Shown: positions 1-14,041 of the stretch, one piece after another | How positions within the stretch are numbered: position 1 is the first letter of the stretch | How the letters are laid out: every line of letters begins with the position of its first letter | Source of the DNA: a virus | Length of the DNA stretch: 20,796 bases | IMG/VR virus record: IMGVR_UViG_3300017950_001508 | Coordinates: 1 to 20,796 of that record | Reading direction: 5' to 3' (one strand) | Notes under the pieces: model-generated | Told to the model about the DNA's origin: nothing | What the model saw: only the letters and a program-made list of their open reading frames with translations | The model's database searches: none | Program-made: the position numbers and the translations under genes

Positions 1-483
1 AAGCCTCAAAGCGACCCTACAGCCAGCCGAGTGGTAGATGGGTATACAGCAGACAACCTAAAGCGTTTACACAACGGTATGCCGCAACGTGCATACACTG
101 AAACCAAACGCAAATGGAGCGGTCGTCCGAGTCCTAAATTTGAAATACCTGCTGATGCAATGCATAAACCAGATGCAAAAGTGCCTTGGCATATGCAAGT
201 AGAATTTAGAGACAAAGACGGTAAAGCATGGTATATGGATCAAGCAGAACGTTTTAATGCTTTCAACTTTAACAAGTTTAAAGGCTGGAGTTGTAATGCT
301 GGTTATCAAGGTATTATCATTCGTGAGCCAGATGGCAGTGTGAAACGCAGTTATAGTTGCCACGATGTGCCTCTTGGCAATATTGAAACAGGATTTAAAC
401 TGTTTGACAAGGCTATGCCTTGTATAACCGAAAGTTGTGTCAGTAGTGCTGATAGTAAAATACCTAAGAGGAAAATCAAATGA
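1..483 (+). CDS. Radical SAM protein, C-terminal twitch/SPASM-like part (5' truncated by window)
   Basis: The frame is open from base 1 to the TGA at 481-483, so this is the 3' part of a longer gene; the GTG at 31 is internal and need not be a start. Four cysteines (codons at 292, 358, 421 and 436) sit in a GWSC ... SYSC ... PLGNI ... PC-x4-C arrangement, as in the auxiliary cluster-binding C-terminal domain of the twitch/SPASM radical SAM proteins common in marine T4-like phages. The CxxxCxxC radical SAM core would lie upstream of base 1 and cannot be seen. The tail ends in a basic SKIPKRK segment. The stop overlaps the start of the P450 gene (ATGA), indicating translational coupling. Family by motif recall; substrate unknown. 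Confidence 0.75.
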   Translation, partial: KPQSDPTASRVVDGYTADNLKRLHNGMPQRAYTETKRKWSGRPSPKFEIPADAMHKPDAKVPWHMQVEFRDKDGKAWYMDQAERFNAFNFNKFKGWSCNAGYQGIIIREPDGSVKRSYSCHDVPLGNIETGFKLFDKAMPCITESCVSSADSKIPKRKIK

Positions 484-1727
484 GGAAAATTGATTTTGAA
501 ATTGTTAATCCTGATTTCTTATACAAAATGGACGAACACATAACATTTTGTTTTAAAAACGAAGAACGCGGCTTCTTTTGGCACCCAGTATATAAACATT
601 GGATTATCTTTTCGATGGATCGCCTTAAAGAGGCATCTAAAATGAATGATAGATTCAGTCTTGCAAAAACATCTCCAGCACCATTTGATCCTACTCCTCT
701 TGGAGGTGTTTGGAGAGCAGGATATGCGTTGACACTTCGTGAAGGTCCGCATCACCACCTTGCTAAAAAACATAGTTTAGATTGGATTAAACGTCGAGCA
801 GGCGATTTTACAAAAATCTTTACAGATAACTTATATAAAGATCTTGACTCGATTAAAAAGGGCGTTCCATTTAAAGCATACGATGTCATAGGCAAAACAG
901 TAACAGATACCCAAGTTCAATCAATTGAGTTTCCGTGGGATGCATTGGATGTTACTGAAGATTATGTAAAAGACGGATTTCATAAGTGGATGCGTCCTGG
1001 AAATGTATTTTCAAACTTTAATCCGGACTTTGATTACGATAAGCCTGTATCAGAGACTACTGAGTTTTATAGTATGTTCTCTCGTATAGTTAACGAAGCA
1101 ATAGAATATTATCATAACAATGATAAAGATTACGATACTATGATTAATATGACTAAAAACCTCAACGACAAACAATCTGAATATAACGATAATCCTAAAC
1201 TAATGGCGTATATGTTTATTCAGTCTTTATGGACAGTGGTTATTCCTACATTTTCGTTAAGTTTATATCAGAACATTTTAATGAACTTTTGTAAATATCC
1301 AGATATTGTTAAACGTATAAAAGAAGATAGGTCTTTAGTTTCTGCATTTGCTAGAGAAAGTTTACGATTAGCACCTTTAAAGGGCGGCGTACGAGATATT
1401 GTTGACGATACAGTATTTCATGGTTATAAGTTTGATGGAGGCGGCCGCATTTTGTTATATACATATGGTGCCAATCGAGATCCAAAATATTATAAAGATC
1501 CGTTAGTATTTAGACTTGAAAGAGATAACGAACCGTTGCCGGTAACACTTGCATATGGCCCGCATCATTGTACAGGTGATTTTCTTGTTAAGCATTTTTT
1601 AGAAATTATTACAAATGCATTATTAGATAGATTTGATACGTTTGAGATTACAAGACAGCCTGAGCTATTGCCTGCTATGTTTGGAAGTACAACTGTTTAC
1701 AAAGATTTAGAAATGGTATTTTCGTGA
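480..1727 (+). CDS. Cytochrome P450 family protein
   Basis: The 415-residue length matches bacterial soluble class I P450s. The K-helix ExxR motif is E293-S-L-R296. The meander follows as ANRDPKYYKDPLVFRLER. The heme loop is AYGPHHCTG with C364 as the expected axial thiolate, although the usual phenylalanine of FGxGxHxCxG is replaced (AYGP). The I-helix region around residues 250-260 reads TVVIPTF. T257 could be the conserved threonine, but the acidic residue normally before it is absent (P256). P450s usually insert one oxygen atom using O2 and electrons from a ferredoxin/reductase pair; no redox partner is encoded here, so host electron donors would be needed. The altered oxygen-activation site leaves room for peroxide use or other chemistry (inference). 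The start overlaps the upstream stop (ATGA) and the end overlaps the next gene (GTGA). The protein has no N-terminal membrane anchor. P450 genes are rare in phages. Confidence 0.88.
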   Translation: MRKIDFEIVNPDFLYKMDEHITFCFKNEERGFFWHPVYKHWIIFSMDRLKEASKMNDRFSLAKTSPAPFDPTPLGGVWRAGYALTLREGPHHHLAKKHSLDWIKRRAGDFTKIFTDNLYKDLDSIKKGVPFKAYDVIGKTVTDTQVQSIEFPWDALDVTEDYVKDGFHKWMRPGNVFSNFNPDFDYDKPVSETTEFYSMFSRIVNEAIEYYHNNDKDYDTMINMTKNLNDKQSEYNDNPKLMAYMFIQSLWTVVIPTFSLSLYQNILMNFCKYPDIVKRIKEDRSLVSAFARESLRLAPLKGGVRDIVDDTVFHGYKFDGGGRILLYTYGANRDPKYYKDPLVFRLERDNEPLPVTLAYGPHHCTGDFLVKHFLEIITNALLDRFDTFEITRQPELLPAMFGSTTVYKDLEMVFS

Positions 1728-2239
1728 TAGAAACAAGGATTATATCTAAACCTACCTTGCAGTTATTAGAATTCATTAATGAATGTGATAGGATGAATTA
1801 CAATAATAACAATAGCCTAGAGTCTATGAAATTTAATAACACATTACGTATTGGCGGAAACTGGTTCGCCACTTTTCATAATACTAAAATTGTTGGCATA
1901 AGCGGAGTACATCCATTCCTCAACGGTATACGAGCATTATTTAGAGGATGTCAACTTTATTCAATTCCTGGCGGATTAAGTAAGAATCATATGAATTGTT
2001 GGATGTTTCGCTATCACTTGCCTATAGTAATTAATATGTACAGCAATAAGCCTATATACATAACAACTAATACCGAAACTGACCACAGCGGCAAAATGTT
2101 AAAGTTAAACAAACTTTATCACATACTTGAAAAAAAACAAATAGTAGAACATCTAGGGTGTCAAAAGGTTTTTGATACCGAACAAAATATATGGAAACTA
2201 AATATAAAAGAATATTGTAAGATAAACCCGGAGATTTAA
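1724..2239 (+). CDS. GNAT-like acyltransferase fold protein
   Basis: The gene encodes 171 residues and starts at a GTG that overlaps the P450 stop (GTGA). The layout resembles diverged GNAT N-acyltransferases of marine phages: an N-terminal helix, a strand pair GGNWFATF..KIVGISGVH (about residues 44-63), a RALFRGCQLY segment, a THTxTDHSGKM-like helix start near residue 120, and a closing IWKLN strand. A clear Q/RxxGxG/A acetyl-CoA loop is not visible, so activity and acyl donor are uncertain. In context it could transfer an acyl group activated by the adenylating enzyme two genes downstream, but that is inference. It is one codon-tight member of the + strand operon; its TAA directly abuts the next ATG. 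Confidence 0.5.
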   Translation: MIETRIISKPTLQLLEFINECDRMNYNNNNSLESMKFNNTLRIGGNWFATFHNTKIVGISGVHPFLNGIRALFRGCQLYSIPGGLSKNHMNCWMFRYHLPIVINMYSNKPIYITTNTETDHSGKMLKLNKLYHILEKKQIVEHLGCQKVFDTEQNIWKLNIKEYCKINPEI

Positions 2240-3427
2240 ATGAAGATTGCTATATTAGGTGCTGGAAGTGCAGGGGTATTAACTGCAGGCTGTTTACTTA
2301 AAGATTTTAAAAATCGTGAAATTGAGTTAGAGCTTACCCATGTATATGATCCAAGTAAGCCTATCCTCGGAGTAGGTGAGAGTACAACGTCAGAAGTAAC
2401 CTTTGCTATTGGTCAGGCATTTGATTTCATATTTGCAACAGAAGCAAAAGAACTCAACAGCACAACTAAGTACGGCACACATTACATTGATTGGAGAGAG
2501 AAAGATATTATTTTTCCTTTTCAATCAGGATATCATGCTATCCATTTTGATGCAAAAGATTTTGTTAAAATGGGCATGGAACGCTTAAAAAAATTATATA
2601 ATAGTTATACTGTATTACACGGTAACGTAGAAAGAGTATCGCAAAGTTTTACTGATTATACTAACGAATCAAGAGGCGGCGAACTAACCGTAGACGGAAA
2701 ACTGCACATATTTGATTATATTATCGATTGTCGAGGTAGACCGACAGATTTTACTGATTACAATGAATGTAACCTTGTTCTAAACTCTGCTTTGGTATAT
2801 GATGATCCAACACCATCTGATTTTGGATTCACACGTCATGTTGCTCATAAGTATGGATGGATGTTTGTTATTCCATTACAACATAGGACATCTCATGGCT
2901 TCCTGTACAACAGTGAGTTTTGTACACGTGAAGAAGCTGAAAAGGAACTTATTCGTATCACAGATGCAACAGATGCAGATACAAAAAACTTCCGTACATT
3001 TGATTTAAAACCATATTATTGTAAGAAGACAGTTGACCAACGTTTATTAAAAAATGGAAACTGTGCAGTGTTCTTTGAACCAATGAGTGCAAATTCGTTG
3101 TATATGGCTGTTAAAAACTGTCAAATACTTTCTGATTATATACGAGGCGAAATTAACGGCTCTCGAGCAAACGAGCTATGTATTTTAAACTATCGTGCAG
3201 TAGAAGATTTAATTAACTTAATCTATCATGGAGGCTCTATATACAAAAACGAATTTTGGGACTGGGCAAAGAAAACATCTGCTGAACGTATAGAAAAGAC
3301 TGATGTATTGAAACGATATGTAAAAGGGCAAAACGACGAAATGTTTAAAACTATTACTGAACGGTTCATGGGTCATCACGTTTTAAAATACGTTGACCAA
3401 GAGTTTGGATTTCATTACTTTGATTGA
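2240..3427 (+). CDS. Flavin-dependent tryptophan halogenase-like protein
   Basis: The 395 residues start at an ATG abutting the previous TAA, with GGAG six bases upstream. The FAD-binding GxGxxG is seen at the N terminus (GAGSAGVLTAG). GVGESTTSE follows, matching the GEST/GEAT signature of the PrnA family. K77 in TTKYGTHYIDW aligns with the catalytic lysine (K79 of PrnA), and W207-M-F-V-I-P212 is a variant of the WxWxIP halogenase motif with Phe for the second Trp. EPMSANSLY (E280-Y288) lies where PrnA has the PLESTG chloride/substrate loop, so the catalytic Glu and the chloride-contacting Ser-Thr appear replaced by S283, A284 and N285. The fold is therefore well supported, but halogenation is doubtful; it may be a flavin monooxygenase or oxidase, or use another acid. 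PrnA is about 540 residues, so this is a short member. Related genes are annotated in marine T4-like phages. No flavin reductase is encoded here. Confidence 0.82.
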   Translation: MKIAILGAGSAGVLTAGCLLKDFKNREIELELTHVYDPSKPILGVGESTTSEVTFAIGQAFDFIFATEAKELNSTTKYGTHYIDWREKDIIFPFQSGYHAIHFDAKDFVKMGMERLKKLYNSYTVLHGNVERVSQSFTDYTNESRGGELTVDGKLHIFDYIIDCRGRPTDFTDYNECNLVLNSALVYDDPTPSDFGFTRHVAHKYGWMFVIPLQHRTSHGFLYNSEFCTREEAEKELIRITDATDADTKNFRTFDLKPYYCKKTVDQRLLKNGNCAVFFEPMSANSLYMAVKNCQILSDYIRGEINGSRANELCILNYRAVEDLINLIYHGGSIYKNEFWDWAKKTSAERIEKTDVLKRYVKGQNDEMFKTITERFMGHHVLKYVDQEFGFHYFD

Positions 3428-4160
3428 TAAATTAGAACATATTATTGTAAATGGCATAACTATTAAAACATCGGGTACATCCGGAGTTCCAAAAGAGATA
3501 TATCAGCCCCCAAGTAAAATAGTAGCAGATGCCAAATGTGCAATCCAAGTTCAGGATATTAATGTGCATAGTTCTATATACACTTGTTTAAGTTTAGAGC
3601 GTGCTGGAGGATTGTTTGCCCAATCTATTCCAGGATTGATAGCTGGTGCAACAGTTAACTTTGATAAATTTAATCTATATAAATATACTAAAGTAGCAGA
3701 TAGATATACTCATACACATTTAACCCCAAAGCAAGCAAAGGGTGTTATGTTAACAAAGGGATTTAAAACACTTGACTTAACCGGCAAAACATTTTTAGTA
3801 GGATCTGAGCCCGTCACGTATGATATTATTGAAGGTTTTATCAATCGAGGTGCTCGAGTAATATGTATATGGGGAATGACCGAAGTTGGAGTAAATGCCA
3901 TTATGCATATATTTAATAACATAGAAGAAGTGTATGCACTTAAAGATATTACGCCTGCTAACTCTACTGTACTCGGTAATATATTTAACTGTGATTATAA
4001 GATAGACAAAGAAAATAGATTATTAGTAAAAGGTGATATATCTGTATATGGGGACAACTGGTTTAATACACAAGATCAAGTAATAGAACAAGACGGAATA
4101 TTATTCTACATTGGAAGAAACGGCACTCCAGTAGACTTTAATAATCCAAGGAAAGGATAA
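3420..4160 (+). CDS. Minimal adenylate-forming (AMP-binding) enzyme
   Basis: The ANL-superfamily core motifs are present in order, numbered from the TTG at 3420. The P-loop is TSGTSGVPK (residues 17-25, motif A3), A5 is WGMTE (151-155), A7 is NTQDQ with ribose-binding D219, and A8 is YIGR with R233. Family members convert a carboxylate to an acyl-adenylate and often then to an acyl-CoA. At about 246 residues it lacks the usual N-terminal 150 or so residues and ends straight after A8, with no C-terminal lobe and no A10 lysine. If functional it would keep ATP and carboxylate binding but not the domain-rotating second half-reaction (inference). There is no ATG. TTG at 3420 overlaps the upstream stop by 8 bases; TTGs at 3393 and 3405 are alternatives with longer overlap. 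The acid substrate is unknown; the short GNAT-like neighbour is a possible acyl acceptor enzyme. Confidence 0.78.
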   Translation: MIDKLEHIIVNGITIKTSGTSGVPKEIYQPPSKIVADAKCAIQVQDINVHSSIYTCLSLERAGGLFAQSIPGLIAGATVNFDKFNLYKYTKVADRYTHTHLTPKQAKGVMLTKGFKTLDLTGKTFLVGSEPVTYDIIEGFINRGARVICIWGMTEVGVNAIMHIFNNIEEVYALKDITPANSTVLGNIFNCDYKIDKENRLLVKGDISVYGDNWFNTQDQVIEQDGILFYIGRNGTPVDFNNPRKG

Positions 4161-4161
4161 T

Positions 4162-6237
4162 ATGAAAACATATGATGTTATAATCATGACTGAAGGCAGC
4201 GACCCGGTATTTAATGTAGCACGGGGAATCGGCGGCTATAAAATTGCATCTGCTTTACGCAATGAAGGATATAGTGTTTTTGTATTAAATAACTTTTCAC
4301 ATTGGATTAAAAACGGAATGATTAAACAAATTCTTGACAAGTTAATCGGTGATAACACACTATGGGTTGGATTTAGTTCTTCGTTGTTTATGAGAAAGAG
4401 TAACGAAGTATATACCAAACGACATACACGAGATACTAATAAAAAAAATATTCTTTGGCGCTGGCCTACTGAAGACGAAGATATTAGAAAAATGACTGAT
4501 TATATTCGATATACCAAAGGTGTAAAAACTGTATACGGCGGCAGTATGTCATATCATCGAGCCGAAGAAGTTAAAAATGAAATAGATTATTATGTAGTTG
4601 GAATGGGCGAACATACTGCATTAAATATTACTAATCACTTAAAAAATGGTACAGATCTTAACTATAATGCCAATCTCGGAACTACTCCCTATATATTTGA
4701 TTATGATCAAAAAGGAGCGTTATTTGATTTTAGAAATACAAAAGTAAACTATATTCCAGAGGACTTTTGGAGTGCGGAAGAAGCTATGGGTATCGAATTT
4801 GGCCGTGGATGCATTTTTAAATGTAAGTTTTGTGCTTATCCATTGATAGGAAAGAAAAAAGGCGATCAATCTTTTTTAAGAGATAAAGAATGTATCAAAC
4901 ACGAATTAAAACAAAACTATGAGTTATATGGCACTACAAAGTATATAATTATCGATGATACATTTAATGAGCAGACTGTTAAGCTACAAGCTATTGCAGA
5001 TGCCATAGAAGAAATTAATCTACCAGAACAACTACAGTTTTCGGCATTTATACGTATTGATCTTGTAGCAAAATGGCCAGAGCAACTAGAACTACTTAAA
5101 AAAATCAATGTGTGTTCTTGGTTTCTCGGTGTTGAATCGTTGAATTATGAGTCAGCCAAGACAATCGGAAAGGGTTGTCCTAGCGCAACAATTTTTGAAA
5201 CAATCAGAAAATCTCGAGAAGTATTTGATGGATCGTTAAGTGTTTACGGTAGCTTTATTGCTGGGTTGCCTTATGATAGTAAAGAAACAATGGATGTTTG
5301 GACTAAGGATGTTATTAAAAACAAAGATCTGTTTGATGCTTTTTCTTTTAGCCCATTAGAGCTCGGCACAGCATCTGAGCTTTCAAAAAATCCAGAAAAG
5401 TTTGGCTATACAGTATATACTGATGATGAAAAGCAAAACAAATGGCGTACTAAAGATTGGGATAGTGACGAGGCTGTTGAATACGTAAAAGTACTTACAA
5501 AAGATTTTATCGATGATATTAAAGTTTCTACCTTCTTTTTAATGTTTTATCAGTGTCTTGGATATTCATTCGAAGAACTTAGAAAAATGACATTTACTGA
5601 ATTATTTACAAGTGCCGAGCCTCGTCGTAAAGCACGGCATTTTTTAGAAAAATCTTATTATTCAAAAGTTGAAAACCTTTTAGAAATAAAGAAGCCCGAA
5701 CCTAATATAAGATATATGAAAAACTTATCGGTTAACCAAGATTTAAAATCTAAATTAAGAAAAGAGTTTTATGAAAACAAGTCACTTGCTAAAGTATTTA
5801 CTGCTTCCAACGAGCACGAAACAAAAAGCATTGATCATCTTCGTGTGATTAGACAAGACGATATGTCTAATTGTAACGTAGCAAATAGTATAGCAAATCA
5901 TGTTAGTTCTATTATTGGTTGCAAAGCTGTTCCTAGGTATTATATACAAGACGGAGATAGTTACCTATCTCCTCATCGTGATCATGGAACAATAACTGCT
6001 TTAAATATAATACTAGATGGCGACGGTCCTATAACATGGAATAGTCCTATATCCTGGAACGAAGATATCGATGTCTATTATGAAGGTGCTTTGCTTAATG
6101 TACAAGAAGAGCACAGTGTACAAACATATAATGAAAGAGTACTTTTTAAACTAGCAATTTTTGATAAAAGTTATGACGAAGTATTAGAAGCAATCAACGG
6201 CAAAGAAGGAGATTTATTTGGCATTGATTCATTATGA
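4162..6237 (+). CDS. B12-binding-type radical SAM protein fused to a C-terminal 2OG-oxygenase-like domain
   Basis: This 691-residue protein shows three parts. Residues 1-165 resemble the Rossmann-like B12-binding domain of class B radical SAM enzymes (GGYKIASALRNEGY near the start, YGGS... and VVGMGEHT later; no DxHxxG, as is common in this class). Residues 210-440 hold the radical SAM core with C217-IFK-C221-KF-C224, preceded by GIEFGRG. After a linker of about 120 residues, residues 570-680 form a double-stranded beta-helix-like oxygenase domain with H605-R-D607, a distal H651 and R659, the spacing of the Asp/Asn beta-hydroxylase-like 2OG-Fe(II) family. B12 radical SAM enzymes typically methylate or rearrange unactivated carbons; 2OG oxygenases hydroxylate. 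The fusion suggests two successive steps on one substrate (inference). The start follows the previous TAA by one base after an AAGGAAAGGA ribosome site. The substrate is unknown. Confidence 0.85.
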   Translation: MKTYDVIIMTEGSDPVFNVARGIGGYKIASALRNEGYSVFVLNNFSHWIKNGMIKQILDKLIGDNTLWVGFSSSLFMRKSNEVYTKRHTRDTNKKNILWRWPTEDEDIRKMTDYIRYTKGVKTVYGGSMSYHRAEEVKNEIDYYVVGMGEHTALNITNHLKNGTDLNYNANLGTTPYIFDYDQKGALFDFRNTKVNYIPEDFWSAEEAMGIEFGRGCIFKCKFCAYPLIGKKKGDQSFLRDKECIKHELKQNYELYGTTKYIIIDDTFNEQTVKLQAIADAIEEINLPEQLQFSAFIRIDLVAKWPEQLELLKKINVCSWFLGVESLNYESAKTIGKGCPSATIFETIRKSREVFDGSLSVYGSFIAGLPYDSKETMDVWTKDVIKNKDLFDAFSFSPLELGTASELSKNPEKFGYTVYTDDEKQNKWRTKDWDSDEAVEYVKVLTKDFIDDIKVSTFFLMFYQCLGYSFEELRKMTFTELFTSAEPRRKARHFLEKSYYSKVENLLEIKKPEPNIRYMKNLSVNQDLKSKLRKEFYENKSLAKVFTASNEHETKSIDHLRVIRQDDMSNCNVANSIANHVSSIIGCKAVPRYYIQDGDSYLSPHRDHGTITALNIILDGDGPITWNSPISWNEDIDVYYEGALLNVQEEHSVQTYNERVLFKLAIFDKSYDEVLEAINGKEGDLFGIDSL
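6206..6211 (+). promoter_or_regulatory. Ribosome binding site fixing a TTG start
   Basis: A full AAGGAG lies inside the end of the radical SAM gene, six bases before the TTG at 6218. It supports that TTG as the start of the downstream oxygenase, because no ATG lies nearby in frame. Confidence 0.7.
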
Positions 6238-6796
6238 TACAATAAACTTACCGATAGTCGAAGGTCTGTTAGAAGAATTAGACAACTTAAATTTAGAATG
6301 GTTCAAACCTTCTAATCCACACAGCGCTCAACAGATATGTTTAAATGCCGCACCAGGCTATACAGATGATTATAGCTTTGGGGCTGGTTACTTTGCAGAT
6401 AAAGGCAAGTCTGATTTCTTTATTAGACTTACACCAGAAGGAGATGTTAGAATACCAATGTCTCCAAAGTCAGTATACGACTGGGAGCTGTGTGATGTTT
6501 TTAAAGGCACATTGTTTAATCACGCCTATTGTGTATTAGAAACAAAATACACTGTCGGTAGAGTGCGTCTATTAAAATCAAAACCGTATACTTGTATGAA
6601 TTGGCATATAGATCCAATTCCTCGTATACATTATCCAATACAAACCAACGAGGCTTGTCTTATGATTATCGAAGATGAAGTATACCATTTACCAAAAGAT
6701 CAATGGACATTTGCTCATACAGATAAAGGAAATCATACTGCGTTAAATGCTAGTAATATTGATCGTATTCATTTAGTAGCAGATATATTACCATGA
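6218..6796 (+). CDS. Aspartyl/asparaginyl beta-hydroxylase-like 2OG-Fe(II) oxygenase
   Basis: This 192-residue protein has the metal facial triad H130-I-D132 and H173, plus the 2OG-binding-type R183. These sit in the family's usual surroundings: NWHIDPIPRIHYPI, then TNEACLMIIEDE, HLP, NHTALNAS and DRIHLV. Family members hydroxylate Asp/Asn or related groups using 2-oxoglutarate, O2 and Fe(II). Stand-alone copies are frequent in cyanophages and pelagiphages with unknown targets. The TTG start overlaps the previous gene by 20 bases behind a strong AAGGAG, and the stop overlaps the methyltransferase start (ATGA). The N-terminal 90 residues carry no motif I recognise. It is one of three such domains in the window, the others being the C terminus of the upstream protein and a - strand gene at 13487-14041. 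Confidence 0.82.
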   Translation: MALIHYDTINLPIVEGLLEELDNLNLEWFKPSNPHSAQQICLNAAPGYTDDYSFGAGYFADKGKSDFFIRLTPEGDVRIPMSPKSVYDWELCDVFKGTLFNHAYCVLETKYTVGRVRLLKSKPYTCMNWHIDPIPRIHYPIQTNEACLMIIEDEVYHLPKDQWTFAHTDKGNHTALNASNIDRIHLVADILP

Positions 6797-7470
6797 TATT
6801 TAAAAAACTTAATGTGTTTAATATATTTGATCAGTTTGTAACTGATTACAAAAATAAAAAAATATTAGACTTTGGAGGAAACCGAGGTAATCTAATTAGT
6901 TATAGCAACGGCAAAATCCATGAAAAAAACTATACTTGTATGGACGTAAGTAAGGATTCATTGAATGCTCTTTTAAATGAACACCCGGCTGCAAATGTAG
7001 TTTATTGGAACAGATACCATTCTATATATAATCCTGCTGGTAGTAAAACAGAAACATTTCCAAATATTGGAATATTTGATATTTCGTTTGCTAACAGTGT
7101 ATTTACTCATCATAACTTAGAAGAACTACTTTATTGTGTAGAAAACCTATGTACCATATCTACATATGTATATTTTACATATATCGATCCATCTAATCAA
7201 AAAATATTTGATATACTTCATAATACGCACAGAACAATAGATGTTTCAGAAAAACAAATGAAAAAAATACGCAGCAATAAAGTTTCGTATATTACAAATA
7301 ACGATAACATGCTATGGTCTGTATTTGATACGGTCGAACTTAAAAAGTCTATAAAAAAATATTCTAGATTTCAGTTATCTATAGAAGATGGACTAACAGA
7401 CGGATTTAACTGGATGAAAATTACAGTGTTAGATAGAAATATTATTGTACCATCTTTAATAGGATATTAA
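6793..7470 (+). CDS. Class I SAM-dependent methyltransferase
   Basis: The 225-residue protein has motif I ILDFGGNRGN (residues 24-33) after a short helix, the acidic post-II residue in CMDVSKDSLN near residue 51, and a motif IV-like FDISFANSVFTHHNLEELL near residue 97. The order and spacing are those of Rossmann-fold methyltransferases, which move a methyl from SAM to O, N, C or S. There is no N(D)PPY motif, so an adenine-N6 or cytosine-N4 DNA methylase is unlikely; a small-molecule or protein methyltransferase fits better. It starts with an ATGA overlap on the oxygenase and is followed after one base by the PP-loop gene, so it belongs to the same coupled operon. The substrate is not deducible. 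Confidence 0.78.
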   Translation: MIFKKLNVFNIFDQFVTDYKNKKILDFGGNRGNLISYSNGKIHEKNYTCMDVSKDSLNALLNEHPAANVVYWNRYHSIYNPAGSKTETFPNIGIFDISFANSVFTHHNLEELLYCVENLCTISTYVYFTYIDPSNQKIFDILHNTHRTIDVSEKQMKKIRSNKVSYITNNDNMLWSVFDTVELKKSIKKYSRFQLSIEDGLTDGFNWMKITVLDRNIIVPSLIGY

Positions 7471-7471
7471 A

Positions 7472-8170
7472 ATGATTTTTACAAAAGATGATTTTCCAGA
7501 TGGACCACCTAAGCAAGTTATATTAATGTTATCAGGCGGATTAGATTCTGCAATATTATTTTATTTAATTTGCAAACACTTTCCAAAAACTTATATTGTT
7601 CCGTTTTCAGGTGATGATGCATGTAATCCTGCAGACATACTTTGTGCTTATGATATTTTAAAATTTATGCGTAAAAGATTTCCTGATGCTAACATAGGAA
7701 AGCACGAAACATATAGATTTGACACTAATGATACTTTTTGGTTTAAAAAAGCTAAGGATCAATTTGATAACTTTACTTTTTCGTCAATAGAAGGATTATC
7801 AAAATATTTTCAGCTAATGGCGGCTCTTAAGAAAGTTAGAGAACAAAATAATATATTAACATTTGTTAATGCAGTAACAGCTAACCCACCAAATGAAGAA
7901 ATGAACCTGCACGGGTTAGAAAACGGCGCAGATCAATATAGAAATGTTTGTATTGAGCCAAGACTATCCAAAACTATATATGGAAATGTTCTGTATAAAC
8001 CGTGGATAAACACAAACAAGCGCGACATAGCAAAGATTTATAAACAAGAAAACTTAATGGAATCATTATATAAGTTAACAAAATCGTGCGTAGATCCTAC
8101 TGCTACTTATGAAAAAAGGGAATGTGGATTATGTTGGTGGTGTCGAGAAAAAAAATGGGGATTTGAATAA
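7472..8170 (+). CDS. QueC-like PP-loop ATPase (7-cyano-7-deazaguanine synthase family)
   Basis: The PP-loop SGGLDS is at residues 21-26, preceded by hydrophobic VILML. The C terminus has C206-x11-C218-GL-C221-WW-C224, matching the structural zinc site of QueC, and ends in KKWGFE. The total of 232 residues equals the QueC length. QueC uses ATP to turn 7-carboxy-7-deazaguanine and ammonia into the nitrile preQ0. QueD, QueE and FolE are not in this window, so a deazaguanine role depends on genes elsewhere or on the host. Other PP-loop ATPases of this shape make amide or nitrile bonds on adenylated acids, which would suit the operon (inference). It follows the methyltransferase by one base. It is the last gene before a late promoter, so it probably ends the tailoring operon, although no terminator is visible. 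Confidence 0.75.
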   Translation: MIFTKDDFPDGPPKQVILMLSGGLDSAILFYLICKHFPKTYIVPFSGDDACNPADILCAYDILKFMRKRFPDANIGKHETYRFDTNDTFWFKKAKDQFDNFTFSSIEGLSKYFQLMAALKKVREQNNILTFVNAVTANPPNEEMNLHGLENGADQYRNVCIEPRLSKTIYGNVLYKPWINTNKRDIAKIYKQENLMESLYKLTKSCVDPTATYEKRECGLCWWCREKKWGFE

Positions 8171-13486: not shown

Positions 13487-14041
13487 TTAAGAAATACAAA
13501 AAACTAAATGTACACGAGCATATTTACTTGCATTTATTGCAGTATGTTGCAATCTGGTATTTACAAGATATGTATTGCCAAATGGAAGTCTTACAACTTG
13601 ATCGTTAATGATCATCATACAGTTTTCGTTTGTATAGATCGGAATATGTATTCTTGGAGATTGATCTGTGTGATAAGTTAAACAAGTCTTATGTTCCATT
13701 AGCATAAACCTGCCTCTTGTAATATTGTATTGTTGATTAATTTTTTCTACAACAGTTTTAAAATAGGTGTTTTTATAGATATTGCATAACTCTGTAAAGT
13801 CTTCTTGTTTGTATATTTTTTTTCTTAATGGCAGTTTTCCATTAGGATTTTTATCATATTCTACCCAGTCATAAAAAAGACTGCCACAACTTTCATACAA
13901 TTGTATGTCTGATGGACAGCCTTTTCTACATTGTAAAGCAACTTGTTTCAAGTTACTTTGGAGTAAATGGTCTATATTTAAACTGTTATACGTATCGATA
14001 ATTTTGTTATAATCGATATCTAAATCAATTTTAGTTATCAT
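13487..14041 (-). CDS. Aspartyl/asparaginyl beta-hydroxylase-like 2OG-Fe(II) oxygenase (second stand-alone copy)
   Basis: The 184-residue protein has H124-T-D126 in TYHTDQSPRIHIPI, distal H166 in QHTAINAS, and R176 in ARVHLVF, the full metal and 2-oxoglutarate set. TNENCMMIINDQ and RLPFGN between them match the + strand copy at 6218-6796. The N-terminal 100 residues differ, with several cysteines (QCRKGC, ESCGS). It starts with an ATGA overlap on the upstream gene and lies just before the tail fibre promoter. This suggests it belongs to the structural block rather than to the enzyme operon. A role in hydroxylating virion or host proteins is possible but unproven. Confidence 0.82.
   Translation of the reverse strand: MITKIDLDIDYNKIIDTYNSLNIDHLLQSNLKQVALQCRKGCPSDIQLYESCGSLFYDWVEYDKNPNGKLPLRKKIYKQEDFTELCNIYKNTYFKTVVEKINQQYNITRGRFMLMEHKTCLTYHTDQSPRIHIPIYTNENCMMIINDQVVRLPFGNTYLVNTRLQHTAINASKYARVHLVFCIS

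Follow-up and report, generated by a model that had tools for sequence, protein, structure and literature searches.

The locus analyzed here raises the question of whether a phage gene truly joins, in one polypeptide, a B12-type radical S-adenosylmethionine (SAM) enzyme and an Fe(II)/2-oxoglutarate (2OG) oxygenase and, if it does, what such a joined enzyme would be used for. The locus lies in the window, by which we mean the whole IMG/VR virus record IMGVR_UViG_3300017950_001508, a single metagenomic contig of 20,796 bases. It is found that the gene is a genuine fusion that recurs in related phages and, based on the sequences and the predicted structure, we lean slightly towards the reading that its product is a bifunctional tailoring enzyme of a phage-borne biosynthetic operon, which would modify one substrate first by B12-radical chemistry and then by oxidation. 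The features of the fused gene are as follows.

4162..6237, plus strand: fused gene, 691 amino acids (aa), B12-type radical SAM enzyme with a C-terminal 2OG-oxygenase-like domain; open reading frame (ORF) without internal stop
4243..4623, plus strand: B12-binding-like domain, residues 28-154 (PF02310, E 2.9e-5, under the curated cut-off)
4792..5292, plus strand: radical SAM core, residues 211-377 (PF04055, E 9e-15)
4810..4833, plus strand: CIFKCKFC, the [4Fe-4S] cysteine motif C217/C221/C224, read from the translation
5683..5700, plus strand: joint between the domains, residues 508-513; the end of unfused radical SAM proteins falls shortly ahead of it and the start of stand-alone oxygenases shortly behind it
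5701..6231, plus strand: 2OG-oxygenase-like domain, residues 514-690 (AlphaFold2 mean predicted local distance difference test score (pLDDT) 91.8, predicted template modelling score (pTM) 0.88; oxygenase matches in PDB)
5974..5982, plus strand: H605-R606-D607, predicted iron ligands one and two (HxD in 17 of 19 aligned rows)
6112..6114, plus strand: H651, predicted third iron ligand (19 of 19 rows)
6136..6138, plus strand: R659, predicted contact to the 2OG carboxylate (19 of 19 rows)

The last ~180 residues match no Pfam family, no useful PHROG and no PDB sequence, and a search of 50,697 isolate phage records at E <= 1 likewise gives no match to this C-terminal domain. Since no curated family is matched by sequence, the assignment as an oxygenase is based on the homologues and on the fold. 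The homologues were gathered stepwise, with the fused homologues followed by the stand-alone neighbours in the operon and then by a wider phage family of stand-alone proteins, giving an alignment (A11) of 19 rows, i.e., the window domain and 18 homologues that are 19-63% identical to it. The stand-alone relatives match nothing useful by sequence in Pfam, PHROGs, PDB or isolate phages either. The residue set H605-x-D607/H651/R659, which the original prediction had named, is found with every member in its place, and the metal-site residues are conserved down to 19% identity with the window domain, with HxD present in all 13 stand-alone rows.

Domain-level structure prediction had been set beforehand as the test of an oxygenase fold. 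For residues 514-690, AlphaFold2 run on the 19-row alignment gives a double-stranded beta-helix with the scores listed above, and the folds nearest to it are those of oxygenases. The top Foldseek matches in PDB are 2OG-Fe(II) oxygenases among other cupins (best 6n1f_D, E 6.2e-7; also PolD and human AspH, 5apa, TMq 0.58). With VIA-align, a prolyl hydroxylase of the hypoxia-inducible factor (HIF) type, 6f0w_A, aligns over 150 residues with Z 13.3 and a root mean square deviation (rmsd) of 2.9, the rows near the top being prolyl hydroxylases, both HIF-type and bacterial (Z 13.3-13.2), homologues of AlkB (12.8-12.6) and 7v4m (12.2, rmsd 2.4); as rows within 1 Z are counted as tied, no oxygenase subfamily is preferred. 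Viral structure models named 2OG-Fe(II) oxygenases also match the fold. Sequence and predicted fold together thus demonstrate, at their own level, that the C-terminal domain has the fold of an Fe(II)/2OG oxygenase, its predicted metal site being intact. Note that the Pfam family PF05118 (Asp_Arg_Hydrox) does not match the window domain and is matched by 2 of the 19 members, with a best E of 0.034; a match to NitrOD2 (E ~0.001), again in 2 of the 19 members, was discounted as scattered. The domain's family also has a stand-alone member at positions 349-813 of a 4.3-kb contig (L084), directly ahead of genes that by eye look uvsX-like and helicase-like, and no radical SAM gene was seen in that contig.

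We turn to the N-terminal half. As originally described, the gene specifies a single chain of 691 residues with the cysteines C217, C221 and C224, and the motif CxxxCxxC is kept in all 11 fused genes that are described below. The PF04055 score of the window protein is 55.7 bits, compared with a cut-off of 29.5, and its best NCBIfam models, TIGR04072 (1.2e-17) and TIGR04479 (PhpK P-methyltransferases, 1e-16), are B12-type radical SAM families. At E <= 0.01, PF02310 is detected in 6 of the 11 rows of another alignment (A7), in which one row is a lone oxygenase domain. Among isolate phages, the whole protein matches two records of Streptomyces phage SF3, with 22.5% identity over residues 197-392, i.e., in the radical SAM part alone.

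Whether the joined frame occurs elsewhere, a search that the original prediction had proposed, was examined in 22 contigs bearing the operon or a part of it, consisting of the window, 20 loci from a scan anchored on the cytochrome P450 gene of the operon, and L021. The fusion is intact in 11 of the 22 (the window, L002, L005, L006, L007, L008, L009, L017, L019, L023 and L024), where each gene is one clean frame of 673-691 codons with one terminal stop. As L007 is identical to L008 in this gene, and L017 to L023 and L024, there are 8 distinct sequences, which fall in three lineages with ~69-74% DNA identity. That two genes were joined by an error of assembly or sequencing, in favour of which it could be said that the window is one metagenomic contig, is excluded because the frame is intact in these 11 contigs, 8 distinct sequences and three lineages, and we regard this explanation as refuted, with a negligible chance of being right. 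In 7 of the 22 contigs the two halves are separate nearby genes: in L020, L021, L074 and L075 the radical SAM gene comes first, followed by the AspH-like (Asp/Arg-hydroxylase-family) gene and then by the stand-alone oxygenase gene, and in L060, L061 and L066 the AspH-like gene is again in the middle but lies in reverse orientation. As sister phages encode the two halves by separate genes close to one another, the fusion unites proteins that belong to a single gene set. Three further contigs (L068, L076 and L078) end too early for the fusion state to be scored, and the last, L022, is considered below.

The unfused genes also locate the joint. Where the genes are separate, the radical SAM proteins terminate near YY.KV..FLGL and the stand-alone oxygenases start with M.KYLTHLP, while the window protein reads YYSKVENLLEIKKPEPNIRYMKNL across the joint. 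The original prediction placed the oxygenase part after a linker; a short joint does exist, but by comparison with the unfused genes it amounts merely to ~5-10 residues, and it is alike in the three fused lineages. This likeness fits one fusion event. A tree of the oxygenase-like domain groups the fused rows on one side (support 82/79), which weakly supports a single origin, and in the radical SAM tree a single origin of the fusion is neither shown nor rejected (approximately unbiased test, p-AU 0.296). A tree including L085 and L076 was set aside, as the branch of L085 is very long.

Outside the operon, the joining of the two chemistries proves to be as rare as the original prediction had supposed. 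A broader scan of viral contigs with the radical SAM alignment gave at least 598 stretches and at least 359 relatives, of which the best 80 were examined with profiles at E 1e-5 within the available flanks. None of these best 80 of at least 359 more distant phage relatives is fused, and their radical SAM ORFs do not exceed 600 aa; an AspH-like gene is found at 20 of the same 80 loci. One pattern scan of 84,980 bacterial and archaeal species gave 29 loci, none of which reaches past query residue 430. The best bacterial relative of the radical SAM part, in Enhygromyxa salina (L025), is 28% identical over residues 5-430; no homologue of the C-terminal domain was found in the Enhygromyxa salina genome, nor in 282 genomes of its phylum, a set that includes no genome with a known match and so carries little weight. 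From these comparisons, the radical SAM family would be common in phages, with the fusion being a speciality of the P450 operon. As an observation in its own right, relatives of the window's B12-type radical SAM enzyme are encoded in no fewer than 359 phage stretches.

One distant contig, represented by L085, L106 and L186 of the same record, has P450, B12-type radical SAM, stand-alone oxygenase and AspH-like genes within ~9 kb, all separate, with the radical SAM enzyme being 31% identical to that of the window (E 2e-57). Neither a halogenase nor an AMP-binding gene was found on the 59 kb of this contig. The grouping is suggestive, not strong, support for the four functions forming a functional set. 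The P450 of this contig (L186, 3338-4471; PF00067, E 1e-16) is different from that of the window, and P450s may be commoner in uncultivated phages than the isolate records suggest.

We now turn to the surroundings of the fused gene, where plus-strand genes from position 1 to ~8,700 form an operon-like block at the left of the window, containing also a DUF6356 gene.

1..483, plus strand: upstream radical SAM protein, C-terminal piece (whole copy in the relative L002, 3207-4319)
480..1727, plus strand: cytochrome P450, 415 aa (PF00067, E 1e-12)
1724..2239, plus strand: presumed acyltransferase-like protein, GNAT-like (GCN5-related N-acetyltransferase), 171 aa, of a conserved family
2240..3427, plus strand: flavin-dependent halogenase-like protein, 395 aa (PF04820, E 4.5e-31; phrog_2928, 2.5e-66)
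3393..4160, plus strand: short adenylating protein of the AMP-binding kind, 255 aa when counted from the first listed start (PF00501, E 5.3e-11, covering positions 170-378 of the 384 in the profile)
6218..6796, plus strand: separate oxygenase of the Asp/Arg-hydroxylase family, 192 aa (PF05118, 25.3 bits, cut-off 22.6)
6793..7470, plus strand: methyltransferase-like protein (PF08242, E 2.3e-6, 28.7 bits, just under the cut-off of 30)
7472..8170, plus strand: QueC-like ATP pyrophosphatase (PF06508, 34.3 bits, cut-off 22; present in part of the family only)

The original prediction had a stand-alone oxygenase of the same family following the fused gene immediately. A second oxygenase does follow, at 6218-6796, but it belongs to a different family, that of the Asp/Arg hydroxylases, with kinship at the profile level alone. 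All 10 aligned rows keep its H, D, H and R, and the best sequence match of its family profile (E 1.6e-12) is 7v4f, a hydroxylase from the pathway of a nucleoside antibiotic. Membership of one family was rejected, with profile comparisons giving probabilities of 1.1% for 9 versus 8 rows and 3.1% for 19 rows of the fused-domain family versus 8 AspH-like rows. With hhalign on 19 versus 10 rows, the probability is 67.8% (E 4.9e-5) and HxD, H and R line up, the control with a P450 profile giving 0.3%. As the link is seen with the larger alignments alone, it indicates remote kinship rather than one family, and the fused domain and its neighbour would be remotely related members of one superfamily.

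In the P450, the heme ligand C364 and the ExxR residues E293 and R296 are invariant in 9 of 9 rows, and no match at E <= 1e-3 exists among the 50,697 isolate phage records. For the acyltransferase-like protein, weak matches to FeeM occur in 2 of 9 members (best E 0.032). The halogenase-like protein scores 108.6 bits with PF04820 (cut-off 21), has GAGSAG near its start, which we take to be the flavin adenine dinucleotide (FAD) motif, and has a Lys in STTKYGT that aligns with a Lys of Thal, presumably the catalytic one. In all 11 sequences its WxWxIP region reads GWMFVIP, with the second Trp replaced by Phe, and Ser stands where the catalytic Glu would be expected, which we take to be Glu346 of PrnA (alignment read by eye; some halogenases may differ here). 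This gene is missing in L060, L061, L066 and L076, and relatives of it are present in 46 isolate phage records at E <= 1e-10.

Some further genes are seen in the related contigs. L010 carries, at 5579-7229 on the minus strand, paralogues of the operon's AMP-binding and acyltransferase-like genes, again as a pair (PF00501, E 1.4e-16, for the AMP-binding one), which hints that the two proteins act together. Downstream of the operon a beta-ketoacyl synthase gene occurs in L074 (16444-17652; PF00109, 3.9e-41; PF02801, 1.1e-28), L075 (15890-17098) and L020 (12541-13764). Just before the P450, a conserved ORF of 97-104 aa, which we call pep100, is found in L005 (2451-2753), L006, L007, L008, L009, L020 (3973-4281), L022 (4052-4354), L068, L074, L075, L076 and L078. 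It has a conserved GWxIxFxPxTADL end where read, no family match and no match in isolate phages. Its product is a candidate precursor, a candidate chaperone or unrelated; the idea of a precursor peptide needed beside the operon was rejected, since the ORF is not found in the window or in seven other contigs (L002, L017, L019, L024, L060, L061 and L066).

The right half of the window consists of minus-strand, phage-like genes, whose products include a subtilase-domain protein, a tail-fibre-like protein that carries the N-terminal domain of Mtd, a phage ATPase, a metallopeptidase/VWA protein and a 5'-3' exonuclease; since this half is phage-like, the cassette is carried by a phage. At 13487-14041 on the minus strand, adjoining the tail-fibre-like gene, there is a second Asp/Arg-hydroxylase-family gene (37.9 bits, cut-off 22.6), for whose product hydroxylation of a virion protein is possible. 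In the phage contig G001 (pieces L010, L011 and L002), much of the 50 kb round the operon is densely filled with genes that, judged by eye, resemble those for radical SAM/SPASM proteins, glycosyltransferases and PP-loop proteins.

Based on our reading of a bifunctional enzyme, the radical SAM half would transfer a methyl group from methylcobalamin to an unactivated substrate carbon, or remake that carbon in another way, and the C-terminal half would then hydroxylate or otherwise oxidise the same product by using Fe(II), O2 and 2-oxoglutarate, with the separate Asp/Arg-hydroxylase-like enzyme adding a further hydroxylation. As a guess, the substrate could be a small acid or amino acid that is activated by the short AMP-binding protein, handed on by the acyltransferase-like protein, also oxidised by the P450 and methylated, and that ends in the host or on the virion. 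The gene set suggests that the phages with the operon make or decorate a molecule. This reading is helped by the tally of fused and separate genes in the 22 contigs, by the fold and the conserved metal-site residues, by the gene grouping of the distant contig L085/L106/L186 and by the low ratio of nonsynonymous to synonymous substitution rates (dN/dS) of the domain, ~0.06-0.19 in the pairs with intact motifs (n=4, with few differences in some pairs), which point to purifying selection on the domain where the motif is intact. It is also helped by the 84-kb contig L022, the one contig of the 22 in which neither oxygenase profile matches (it may still be a fragment), where both oxygenases are thus missing together.

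Several observations weigh against this reading. In L017, L019, L023 and L024 (two distinct sequences) RTE replaces HRD, with the distal His and the Arg retained, and between L019 and L024 dN/dS is 0.50 in the oxygenase-like domain, compared with 0.08 in the radical SAM half and 0.13 in the AspH-like gene. Because one of the three fused lineages has lost HxD, with relaxed selection, oxygenase activity would not be needed everywhere; Fe(II) hydroxylation, as originally ascribed to the domain, is a prediction from its fold and motif, and this lineage does not keep the HRD of the motif. Since L022 has neither oxygenase but retains the genes for the P450, the acyltransferase-like, halogenase-like and adenylating proteins and the radical SAM enzyme, the oxygenase steps would be late or optional. 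For the N-terminal half, the predicted B12-type domain is matched by PF02310 but at 24.3 bits, below the curated cut-off of 32.1, and the NCBIfam radical SAM models all score well under their cut-offs, TIGR04479 giving 60.5 bits where 600 are required, so that the protein is not placed in the PhpK family; cobalamin binding by this half is likely. Moreover, AlphaFold2 of the full-length protein with 7 sequences gives an unusable pLDDT of 43.8, and outside the operon the two domains seldom lie close together, a stand-alone oxygenase of the fused-domain family being present at one of the 80 distant radical SAM loci.

The loss of the motif bears also on another explanation, that the C-terminal domain is mainly accessory, serving in substrate binding, oligomerisation or docking of the AspH-like enzyme, with oxygenase catalysis secondary or being lost. 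The domain with RTE is still fused in frame in 4 of the 11 fused contigs, as this explanation would have it, and the domain is absent from L022; against this, HxD is intact in the other 7, the window included, and in every stand-alone row of the alignment A11, and selection is relaxed just where the motif is lost, so that the L019/L024 lineage looks like decay of a still-attached catalytic domain. We therefore consider a mainly accessory role unlikely. It could also be that the two halves catalyse non-successive steps and that the fusion merely balances the expression of two enzymes of the same pathway, for which the separate-gene state in seven contigs, with the AspH-like gene between the halves, can be cited. 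By contrast, the joint has very few residues and differs little among the three fused lineages, so that the two domains are kept close, and mere balancing of expression appears rather improbable to us. Compatible with either reading is the possibility that the operon modifies a protein or glycan of the virion or the host rather than a free small molecule. The many radical SAM-like and glycosyltransferase-like genes beside the operon in the relative G001 (by eye) and the AspH-like gene adjoining the tail-fibre-like gene speak for such a macromolecular target, while adenylating enzymes, P450s and halogenase-like proteins are, by general knowledge, more typical of small-molecule pathways; we take it as a real possibility, if the less probable case.

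Returning to the reading of one enzyme acting in successive steps, we put forward tentatively, and with somewhat less than even expectation, its fuller form: that in three phage lineages a one-chain B12-radical and iron-oxygenase enzyme acts on the same intermediate at the centre of an undescribed phage pathway, comprising P450, halogenase-like, adenylation, acyltransferase-like and methyltransferase functions and two oxygenases, which yields a new metabolite or virion decoration in infection. If this is true, phages carry a multi-step oxidative tailoring pathway of a type usually linked to antibiotic producers, in an operon that several phage lineages have conserved. The fused versions and the naturally unfused versions of sister phages would then give a direct handle on whether an oxygen-sensitive radical step and one that requires oxygen can both be carried out by one protein on one substrate, and the separate-gene relatives make the pathway prediction testable.

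Finally, we compare the locus with known systems. With the class 1 cobalamin-dependent radical SAM enzymes OxsB, TokK and TsrM (PMC13331322), the window protein shares the order of a B12-like domain followed by a CxxxCxxC radical SAM core; the main text of that paper nowhere uses the word "oxygenase", so a C-terminal oxygenase domain is not described there. From the NCBIfam models of PhpK and HpnJ the protein is set apart by scores far under the cut-offs. With Fe(II)/2OG oxygenases such as prolyl hydroxylases, AlkB and AspH, the fused domain shares the fold, HxD...H and a basic residue past the distal His, but it forms a phage family of its own, with no significant sequence match in Pfam or PDB, and is attached to a radical SAM enzyme. 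Similarly, it matches 7v4m in fold (Z 12.2, rmsd 2.4) and not in sequence, and 7v4f/7v4m is a chain of 182 aa without a radical SAM part. The 395-aa protein of the operon is in the same Pfam family as the cyanophage halogenases, of which VirX1 (6qgm) is a flavin-dependent one (Gkotsi 2019, as cited in PMC10452541); it matches VirX1 with E 5.1e-8, is less than 60% identical and sits beside a P450 and the fusion. Viral P450s are described from giant viruses and from Mycobacterium phage Adler (PMC9405906); compared with the P450s named there, all of them viral genes, that of the window belongs to a conserved operon. Among open-access PMC titles and abstracts, a scope that leaves most subscription papers and bioRxiv outside, neither a fusion of radical SAM and 2OG-oxygenase nor this operon was found, and in the collections searched the fusion architecture was not found beyond this phage group. 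Each part is of a known kind, and what is new is the fusion, in a phage operon that itself appears to be undescribed.

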